A stretch of DNA of 21,737 bases from a virus. The DNA lies in the IMG/VR virus record IMGVR_UViG_3300020401_000112, positions 1 through 21,737 of that record; one strand, written 5' to 3'. Of the stretch, positions 79 through 7,995 are shown piece after piece. Both the position numbers and the translations under genes were made by a program. The notes under the pieces are model-generated. The model saw only the letters and a list, made by a program, of their open reading frames with translations, ran no database searches and was not told where the DNA came from. How positions within the stretch are numbered: position 1 is the first letter of the stretch; each line of letters begins with the position of its first letter.

Positions 79-114
79 TATGAACTCCATTTTTTATTAT
101 TATTATGATTTACC

Positions 115-488: not shown

Positions 489-628
489 TAGATACTCCCA
501 TTATTATTAATAAATTGTTGTGCTTCTTTTTTAGTTCTGAAAATATCCAAAACTTTACCATTTAGAGATACAGCCCATTTACAAGCTGTACCCCAATTTT
601 CAGTTTTATATATTTGGTAATTGTTCAT
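488..628 (-). CDS. Hypothetical 46-aa protein, DUF2188-like pattern
   Basis: A 46-codon gene, MNNYQIYKTENWGTACKWAV then LNGKVLDIFRTKKEAQQFI. The layout (tryptophan-containing strand, a GK turn, a strand, then a KTKKEA-type helix) resembles the small alpha/beta DUF2188-type domains common in phages; this is pattern resemblance only. Its start overlaps the upstream stop in a TAATG and its stop overlaps the next start in another TAATG. That tight coupling on both sides is the main evidence that it is real. Confidence 0.6.
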   Translation of the reverse strand: MNNYQIYKTENWGTACKWAVSLNGKVLDIFRTKKEAQQFINNNGSI

Positions 629-1065
629 TAAATACTACCCATTCTGATTGTATGTGCATGACCATTTTCAAATGCTTCCATACCTCTATCAATAGAAACA
701 TTTTTCATCTTCTTAGCTTTAGATGGTTTCACACAATTAACAGAAACAGAACCATCAGCCCAATGATGAATTCTATCAATTTCTTTATCAATAGCTATCG
801 GAACACATTTGATTGGTTCGCCAATATTTCGATATTGAACACCATCACAATCCATACCAGTTTCAACCAAACAAGTATAACCATACTCAGTATTCATTCT
901 AAAGTGATTATATCTTTCTTGTTTCAAAGCTAATTTATCTTTTCTTAAAAATCTTGGAAAAAATCTAAGATACCCCTTAAAAGCTACCCTAAAATCTTCA
1001 TCATCTTTGATAAGGTCAAAATAACCATTAATTGCTTTTCTTTCTATTTCTCTTTTATTTTGCAT
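628..1065 (-). CDS. Hypothetical phage protein (145 aa)
   Basis: A 145-aa soluble protein. The N-terminal half is helical and strongly basic (KREIERKAINGYFDLIKDDE, then FFPRFLRKDKLALKQERY). The C-terminal half carries two cysteines and several histidines (HHWADGSVSVNC, ENGHAHTIRMG). No family recognised. The start is supported by GGAG seven bases before ATG in an ATGGAGTTC leader. It is the first gene of the leftward small-gene operon, divergent from the VRR-NUC gene, and its stop couples to the 46-aa gene by TAATG. Confidence 0.7.
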   Translation of the reverse strand: MQNKREIERKAINGYFDLIKDDEDFRVAFKGYLRFFPRFLRKDKLALKQERYNHFRMNTEYGYTCLVETGMDCDGVQYRNIGEPIKCVPIAIDKEIDRIHHWADGSVSVNCVKPSKAKKMKNVSIDRGMEAFENGHAHTIRMGSI

Positions 1066-1290
1066 TTAGAACTCCATTATTATTTTATTATTATCGGCAT
1101 CATTGCCCGTAAAACCTAGCTTAAATCCTAGGTTTTTATATGTCAAGCACAGAATTAATTATTGTGTATTTTTTATATTTATTTATTATAAAAGTGAGCA
1201 TTACCCCTTGGTAATAATTTCCTCCTCACAGGGGTTTGTCCTCTCTTTTTGTTAAGAACTCCAATTTTTTAACAAAACATAGGGGGTAAT
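1066..1290. promoter_or_regulatory. Divergent control region with operator-like palindromes
   Basis: No protein-coding gene is seen here. For leftward transcription there is a TTGACA hexamer (complement of 1141-1146), directly abutting a palindrome with arms AAAACCTAG (1111-1119) and CTAGGTTTT (1128-1136). The matching -10 (TAAGCT) is poor and lies inside the palindrome, as expected for a repressor-controlled promoter. For rightward transcription, TTGTGT (1162-1167) and TATTAT (1184-1189) are 16 bases apart. A second small palindrome, ATTACC-CCTT-GGTAAT, is at 1200-1215. Promoter assignment is inference. Confidence 0.4.
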
Positions 1291-1308
1291 ATGTTATTAT
1301 CCCCTATG
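1278..1308 (+). promoter_or_regulatory. Hairpin over the ribosome-binding site and start of the VRR-NUC gene
   Basis: Left arm CATAGGGGGTAATA (1278-1291) and right arm TATTATCCCCTATG (1295-1308) form a 14-bp stem with one G-U pair and the three-base loop TGT. The AGGGGG ribosome-binding site (1281-1286) and the A of the start codon lie in the stem; the T and G lie in the loop. As RNA it would block initiation. As DNA it is a near-perfect palindrome that could also bind a repressor. Confidence 0.6.
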
Positions 1309-1668
1309 ACCTTAGAAAACGACTTACAAATTGCTGTAAATGAATATCTGAACTATTTATCGAAAAGCTATAGATTCCGCCATTTTCATGTACCTAATGA
1401 AGGAAATAGACCTGTTTCCTATAAAGTAAAACTTAAAAAAATGGGGTTAAAAGCTGGTTGCCCCGATATAATTATCGAATATCCTCAAGGCAAAATTTTA
1501 TATATTGAATTGAAAACAAAAAAAGGGCGGTTGTCTGATTCTCAAAAATTGTGGGCTATACAATCAAAAGCTATGGGAACACCCCACTATATAGTGCAAG
1601 GGGAAATCACCGAATGTTTAGACGAAATCAAAAGTATTATTCAAAAAAACATTCCAGCGGGGTGTTAA
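1291..1668 (+). CDS. VRR-NUC domain nuclease
   Basis: A 125-aa single-domain PD-(D/E)xK nuclease of the VRR-NUC type. Visible family motifs are HVPNEGNRP (33-41), GCPDIII (56-62) with D59, and ILYIELKTKKGRLSDSQK (69-86) with E73, K75 and Q85. These supply the metal-binding and catalytic residues. Phage stand-alone VRR-NUC proteins are thought to cut branched or junction DNA during replication or packaging; that role is from the family, not the sequence. ATG at 1291 follows AGGGGG at good spacing; a second ATG at 1306 lacks a ribosome-binding site. It is the only clear rightward gene, convergent with the late operon and divergent from the small left genes. Confidence 0.88.
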   Translation: MLLSPMTLENDLQIAVNEYLNYLSKSYRFRHFHVPNEGNRPVSYKVKLKKMGLKAGCPDIIIEYPQGKILYIELKTKKGRLSDSQKLWAIQSKAMGTPHYIVQGEITECLDEIKSIIQKNIPAGC

Positions 1669-7644: not shown

Positions 7645-7995
7645 CTATGTAATCTCTAAAATACTTAATGTAGCATCAATTTTTCCCGCTACACTACAAT
7701 CAATTTTCAAAACATCTGTTGCTTGAACAACAACTTTACCACCAGTTAAAAGTTCTAATGTTGAGCCAACTGGTATTGAAACATCTTTTGCTAATAAAAC
7801 TGTTTCGTTTGTTTCTGTGTCTGATGTATCTGAAACAAGTTGGACATCAACTGTAACTGTCGCTGTGTGAATATTACAAAGTAACAACCCAATTACAACT
7901 GTTGTTGTTGAACTGGGTACTGTGTAAAGGGTTAGCGGTGTTCCCGCACTTGCGGGCATTGCCCCATTTGTTTTAACTTTAAATGTATTTGCCAT
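7645..7995 (-). CDS. Small beta-sandwich tail-tip protein (116 aa)
   Basis: A 116-aa, nearly all-beta protein rich in Thr and Val (TPLTLYTVPSSTTTVVIGLL, CNIHTATVTVDVQLVSDTS, VLLAKDVSIPVGSTLELL). The pattern of a YTVP loop, a CNIH/C-N strand and an IPVGSTLEL strand is common in small proteins next to fibre genes of marine phages. Those are probably decoration or appendage domains. Closely packed between the 104-aa and 236-aa appendage genes. No enzyme motif. Confidence 0.65.
   Translation of the reverse strand: MANTFKVKTNGAMPASAGTPLTLYTVPSSTTTVVIGLLLCNIHTATVTVDVQLVSDTSDTETNETVLLAKDVSIPVGSTLELLTGGKVVVQATDVLKIDCSVAGKIDATLSILEIT

Follow-up and report, generated by a model that had tools for sequence, protein, structure and literature searches.

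The locus and its relatives

The stretch of DNA analysed here, referred to throughout as the window, comprises positions 1 to 21,737 of IMGVR_UViG_3300020401_000112. It is a phage segment in which the minus strand carries nearly all genes. The features needed below are the following, where RBS stands for ribosome-binding site and SD for Shine-Dalgarno sequence:

82-89, minus strand: predicted target 2, RBS motif TGGAGTTC, belonging to a minus-strand gene that starts at 78 and runs off the window
628-1065, minus strand: gene of 145 aa without a family match, the first in the divergent early operon
1069-1076, minus strand: predicted target 1, RBS motif TGGAGTTC, upstream of the minus-strand gene 628-1065
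1162-1189, plus strand: candidate leader promoter, TTGTGT-16-TATTAT, a weak form of the relatives' extended -10 promoter
1247-1277, plus strand: hairpin A, arms 1247-1258 and 1266-1277, loop CTCCAAT at 1259-1265, adjoining hairpin B on its 5' side
1278-1308, plus strand: hairpin B, 14-bp stem with loop TGT, containing the SD AGGGGG, the ATG at 1291 and an alternative ATG at 1306
1291-1668, plus strand: gene of the 125-aa VRR-NUC nuclease, with a PD..ELK motif readable in the sequence; the one clear plus-strand gene of the window

A preliminary description of this DNA had taken the reading frame at 1291-1668 for a VRR-NUC nuclease, and its match to PF08774 (E = 7.7e-8; 32.8 bits against a gathering cut-off of 23.8) places it in that family. 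The second in-frame ATG, at 1306-1308, forms the foot of the right arm of hairpin B, and many relatives start there.

From uncultured marine phages we collected VRR-NUC relatives with 93 distinct leaders, using two protein searches and a DNA pattern scan of viral contigs. The position of the gene is constant in the relatives examined: late and lysis genes lie on one side and a leftward "early" operon on the other, and VRR-NUC is on the strand opposite to both. The labels "early" and "late" were assigned from gene content and position, not from expression. The nearest cultured phages by capsid protein are the Pelagibacter phages HTVC026P, 112P, 202P and 111P (66-71% identity), and the host of the window phage and its relatives is therefore likely to be of SAR11 (Pelagibacter) type. 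VRR-NUC was not found in prokaryote genomes with the patterns used. Scanning IMG/VR for the pattern CTCCAAT..AGGGGGTA recovered contigs mostly without a VRR-NUC gene, and the matches on these are probably due to chance. One 30.3-kb contig, IMGVR_UViG_3300030106_000204 (L015/L133 and L019/L118), has a VRR-NUC gene close to each end; the two differ in hairpin B, one with a short loop and the other with a long insert, so that the contig holds either two copies of the gene or a redundant end with strain variants.

A conserved hairpin encloses the nuclease start

Hairpin B has the sequence CATAGGGGGTAATA-TGT-TATTATCCCCTATG, in which the arms 1278-1291 and 1295-1308 form 13 Watson-Crick pairs and one G.U pair. 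Counting the G.U pair, this is the 14-bp hairpin with a TGT loop that the preliminary description had placed at 1278-1308, and AGGGGG (1281-1286) and the A of the ATG (1291) do lie in the stem as stated there. Because the G.U pair is a G.T mismatch in DNA, the inverted-repeat tool did not list the hairpin. It is nevertheless the lowest-energy 31-mer of the window's plus strand (-18.1 kcal/mol) and the sole hairpin of the window, on both strands, with at least 14 pairs, at least 4 G-C pairs and a loop of 3-8 nt. Sixty dinucleotide shuffles of the window produced two hairpins of this class in total, in line with the earlier judgement that such a fit is unlikely by chance, and the folding check proposed for 1250-1330 gave -23.9 kcal/mol against -10.8 ± 2.8 for shuffled sequence (z = -4.7; 0 of 200 as good). 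Hairpin A, directly upstream at 1247-1277, had been overlooked.

The relatives provide a further test. Covariation had been suggested as a check, and pairing in hairpin B is kept in all 93 distinct leaders, with compensatory changes; no VRR-NUC relative, at 64-99% protein identity, keeps the gene and loses the pairing. (In leaders L218 and L100 our script picked another helix, and the hairpin B pairing is present on reading.) The arms are complementary yet vary between phages: CATAGGGG/CCCCTATG, GTAGGGG/CCCCTAC, TGGGGGT/ACCCCCA, TAGGGGTCTGT/ACAGACCCTTA and CATAGGGAG/CTCCCTATG. Aligning 19 diverse short-loop members gives 95.5% paired cells, with 6 of the 13 pairs changed on both sides, and the pairing falls to 42-56% when the partner is slid.

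Most of the within-stem departures in this alignment are G.U. Among 53 distinct helices, located without favouring G.T, the departures comprise 52 G.T and 13 A.C, and because G.T thus predominates over A.C, the comparison indicates that the selected form of hairpin B is plus-strand RNA. The same asymmetry speaks against the repressor operator that had been offered as an alternative. More broadly, the divergent intergenic region could hold a DNA-level site, such as an operator, a cruciform or a sequence on which the VRR-NUC enzyme acts, as inverted repeats between divergent genes might suggest, and one PHROG match of the VRR-NUC protein does bear the name Holliday junction resolvase. We think this very unlikely: the departures of hairpin B are of the kind that RNA tolerates and that would be mismatches in DNA, with A.C rare, its loop can be as short as 3 or as long as about 63 nt in relatives, and the arms of hairpin A are completely different between phages.

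We also considered hairpin B as an intrinsic terminator. The stem is not followed by a T run on the plus strand. On the minus strand of the window it is followed by TTTTGTT, as expected if it ended leftward late transcription, but most relatives lack the T run, and the minus-strand stem is weaker, with A.C mismatches. The minus-strand terminator was rejected because its T run is not conserved, and we give the idea hardly any credence.

What does persist is the enclosure of the start codon. Although its position and the loop length vary, the VRR-NUC start is always inside hairpin B: the window type, L101 and L125 have it in the loop, most relatives have it where the right arm ends at its foot, and L094 and L135 have it within that arm. 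A stable, covarying stem that pairs the SD, the start codon or both is what characterizes a cis-regulatory SD-sequestering hairpin, and hairpin B has these properties. The compensatory changes, the plus-strand G.U pairs and the constant presence of the start all favour post-transcriptional control of the VRR-NUC start, as first proposed; that proposal was too narrow, however, in that the loop of hairpin A suggests that the leader itself is a regulator.

The longer loops of hairpin B have contents of their own. In many relatives (L118, about 7910-7985; L113, L131, L117, L097) the loop carries a conserved insert of 45-50 nt, CTTCGAGGTACTTAAATAAATCGCAGTATTTATAGGAAGTGAAACAG, which is flanked by hairpin B arms of quite different sequence. 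Another group of relatives has a loop with AAATGGGTGCAATCTCATTA, itself a small hairpin. These inserts look like exchangeable RNA modules.

Promoter and hairpin A

A promoter of the extended -10 type is found on the plus strand in 67 of 91 leaders; the minus strand gives 12 and shuffled sequences 2.8. In the relatives' leaders the conserved plus-strand promoter ends 15-43 nt before CTCCA, which would put hairpin A at the 5' end of the plus-strand RNA or close to it. Transcription starting past the left arm of hairpin B had been named as an observation that would count against control of the nuclease start; instead, the promoter of most relatives lies upstream of both hairpins. The form in the window is weaker, and the strict promoter pattern has no match in the window itself.

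The arms of hairpin A are wholly different between phages (for example TTGTTAA/TTAACAA, ATACAAT/ATTGTAT, GCAC/GTGC and TTACTAT/ATAGTAA), and a single bracket structure on an alignment is unusable, as the bulges shift. We therefore tested the pairing by swapping arms: an arm with its own partner gives -7.8 kcal/mol, compared with -4.1 kcal/mol for swapped partners. The loop core CTCCAA (CUCCAA in RNA) is invariant, and the remainder of the loop varies by phage. Departures within the arms are 11 G.T and 4 A.C, and among 58 distinct arm pairs the plus strand is better in 30 and the minus strand in 24, which makes the strand of hairpin A less certain than that of hairpin B.

Further upstream, at 1200-1245 of the window, a UUCCUCC stretch lies in a possible further hairpin; a loop with UUCCUCC or UUCUCC is seen there in many relatives, though not in all.

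The loop of hairpin A matches the early-gene ribosome-binding sites

Within hairpin A, AGAACTCCA is complementary to TGGAGTTCT, the RBS of the early genes. The window has three copies of TGGAGTTC, always on the minus strand: at 82 and 1069, before the early genes at 78 and 1065, and at 1256, in hairpin A. Across phages the RBS motif of the divergently transcribed early genes is TTGGAG followed by TTC, ATC, CAT, TAT or AAN, and the loop of hairpin A is its complement phage by phage. The three variable letters after TTGGAG define five loop types (TTC, ATC, CAT, TAT and AAC); one further locus is of type TCC and has no left flank for testing.

The agreement between loop and RBS can be quantified in several ways. 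A phage's own type makes up 55, 64, 44 and 55% of its TGGAG-type RBSs and foreign types 0-5%, the exception being TAT RBSs, which reach 18% in CAT phages. For the AAC loop type the RBSs are AAA or AAT and match in two of the three variable letters. The true assignment of loops to RBS types ranks 1 of 120, and in 70 of 78 genomes the triplet most frequent among the RBSs is that of the loop; for ATC (13 genomes) and CAT (9 genomes) the agreement is without exception in either direction. When a phage's own loop is paired with the four early RBSs that fit it best, the mean predicted duplex energy is about -11 to -13 kcal/mol; late genes, which have no loop match, reach about -7 to -8. The own-loop energy is the lowest in its row for four of the five types; TAT genomes bind the CAT loop slightly better.

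Since the phages are related, part of such a match could reflect descent. On the VRR-NUC tree the loop type changes at least 11 times, including between close relatives: in the close pair L114 (TAT) and L120 (TTC), the RBSs of each phage follow its own loop. Well-supported branches give two independent contrasts for TTC and one for each other type, all in the expected direction, and with so few contrasts formal significance on this tree was not reached. Two further observations bear on the question. First genes that are not orthologous bear the type of their own phage, and orthologous genes switch type with the phage; this matching of accessory and orthologous genes argues for a functional match and not mere shared descent.

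The predicted targets include the first gene, or the first two, of the operon; different phages have non-orthologous genes there, in some of them an ArdC-like anti-restriction gene (PF08401). Also predicted are a lipoprotein-like gene, a gene without assigned function and, about 4-5 kb away, a primosomal or DUF1376-like replication gene, named from weak domain matches in the first 60 residues.

Several other elements lie near the predicted targets or in the early operon. A 21-nt inverted repeat (86%) at 115-163 on the minus strand of the window stands directly past the stop of the minus-strand gene 162-488, with an ATG in its loop, a short ORF and an TGGAGTTC RBS nearby. At about 1111-1137, upstream of the first early gene, the stem AAACCTAG..CTAGGTTTTT has T runs on both strands and might act as an attenuator or as a terminator in both directions. 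Where genes of the early operon follow each other closely (L012, L111, L114, L118 and others), their junctions show a second recurrent start context, (A)GGGGGTAAACTAATG. We tried the second RBS class, AGGGGGTAAACTAATG, as a partner of hairpin B; it is common at gene junctions and shows no relation to the type of the B arms, and was rejected.

A model for the leader

We propose, with a probability of roughly 60%, that the 5' leader of VRR-NUC is an antisense RNA that represses several early genes in trans, with hairpin B shutting off translation of VRR-NUC. The sequences directly show the folds of the two hairpins, the strand of B, the covariation of loop and targets, the lack of a match at late genes and the promoter of most relatives; pairing in the cell, repression, its timing and the opening of B are inferred. 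Specifically, a plus-strand RNA starting just upstream of hairpin A would be VRR-NUC mRNA and antisense regulator in one. Hairpin A would present its loop, of which about 9-12 nt are complementary to the early-gene RBSs (TTGGAGNNCA...ATG), and pairing would block ribosome binding, so that several early genes would be lowered together. Hairpin B would bury the SD or start codon of the nuclease, leaving the transcript little translated unless B is opened.

Another explanation is that the leader controls only its own gene. Hairpin B would then lock VRR-NUC translation until a protein, temperature or another RNA opens it, and hairpin A would be a stabiliser or protein site whose likeness to the early RBSs is incidental. 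This explanation would suit the constant inclusion of the VRR-NUC start in B, and the better conservation of pairing in B than in A. It leaves the phage-by-phage match between the A loop and the early RBS type unexplained, however, and we regard it as improbable.

A phage RNA-binding protein could also account for that match. In the manner of RegA in T4, a protein recognizing TTGGAGNNC at the early RBSs could have a further copy, decoy or autoregulatory, in the minus strand of hairpin A, with protein and sites evolving together. Such a protein would explain both the shared motif and its change between phages, and the weakly resolved strand of A would be no obstacle. But no start codon follows the minus-strand copy in hairpin A, plus-strand RNA is where the conserved promoter and hairpin B put hairpin A, and a protein-binding motif would need neither a hairpin around the A copy nor a place on the plus-strand transcript. 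The RBS copies are without a hairpin, and the A copy is always in one, as suits an antisense loop; a loop on a stem in one partner and unstructured copies in the others are what antisense pairing requires. We rate the protein as unlikely, much like control of the leader's own gene only.

Relation to known systems

The nearest system in kind and logic is the c4 antisense RNA of phages P1 and P7, in which complementary stretches, likely in loops, bind around the RBS of ant mRNA and block its translation (PMC12197685). The two are alike in being phage-encoded, in a complement that likely lies in RNA loops and in the RBS region as target, predicted in the case of the leader: the loop of hairpin A is complementary to RBSs of the phage's own presumed target mRNAs. 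They differ in that c4 acts on ant mRNA, whereas one leader loop matches several separate early genes, and in that this loop sits in the 5' leader of the nuclease mRNA beside a start-hiding hairpin. Rfam gave no family match in the window or in 8 relatives, and we therefore suggest that the leader may work like c4 and do not claim membership in the c4 family. The c4 RNA is involved in heteroimmunity between the related phages P1 and P7 (PMC12197685). By analogy, the loop types TTC, ATC, CAT, TAT and AAC might be a recognition code, in which the leader of a resident phage would silence a co-infecting phage's early genes if the two share a type and leave them active if they do not. Among these marine phages, which probably infect SAR11, each loop with its RBS set would then form an immunity or compatibility group whose parts evolve together. 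We offer this as speculation and regard it as unlikely.

In cluster K mycobacteriophages, the SAS/ESAS motif is repeated just before the starts of non-structural genes and contains the SD, and some phages have a single copy on the opposite strand (PMC3203893). The likeness lies in RBS-borne repeats together with one opposite-strand copy, which we found in a hairpin loop in Mycobacterium phage Anaya and several of its relatives. The single opposite-strand SAS of Anaya (L265 about 34865-34890; near record position 59870) occupies the loop of GCGCGG-CCTCCTATCC-CCGCGC, which is kept in YoureAdopted, Validus, Shaobing and Curiosium and, with changes, in Amelie. Sequence and phages are different, however, and VRR-NUC is lacking: the 13-bp GGGATAGGAGCCC that precedes start codons in the SAS regulon is not the marine phage motif, TTGGAGNNCA. 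Moreover, SAS stays constant where the opposite-strand loop does not: of the relatives tested, four (Unicorn, Marshawn, Nibb and Keshu) keep SAS intact beside different opposite-strand loops. We therefore rejected the SAS analogy as general proof and treat the parallel as a lead.

The two halves of the leader also have other known counterparts. Cis-acting SD-sequestering hairpins and RNA thermometers bury the SD and start codon of a downstream gene. Hairpin B likewise buries the SD and start of its own gene, but differs in its stable stem (-18 kcal/mol), its free loop length and its coupling to a second, predicted antisense hairpin. Trans-acting bacterial sRNAs with C-rich loops target SD sequences, RNAIII of Staphylococcus aureus being an example. 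Hairpin A resembles these in its CUCC loop, complementary to the SD regions of several mRNAs, and departs from them in the predicted targeting of the phage itself and in a seed that changes with its targets between phages.

Among the cultured Pelagibacter phages, HTVC026P (L263 about 805-840) has on the minus strand a hairpin GTGTTGGG-TGGTTTTCTCTCTCTACTG-CCCAACAC in the leader of the divergent gp03, with a loop complementary to early RBSs of the form AGGAGAGAGA. This loop at 805, TTTTCTCTCTCTAC, is the best genome-wide and is complementary to 4 of 91 RBS windows; it is of low-complexity sequence. We found no comparable anti-RBS loop in 112P and 202P, and a weak one in 111P.

On strong comparative evidence, we read the leader as a probable variant of phage antisense RNA combined with an SD-hiding leader. 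SAR11 (Pelagibacter) bacteria are among the most abundant in the ocean, and little is known of the timing of gene expression in the phages that probably infect them. Here the seed and several target RBSs appear to have changed together repeatedly, a natural compensatory-mutation experiment that names the targets and makes the proposal directly testable. The leader system also offers a testable idea for the role of the start-associated sequences of mycobacteriophages.
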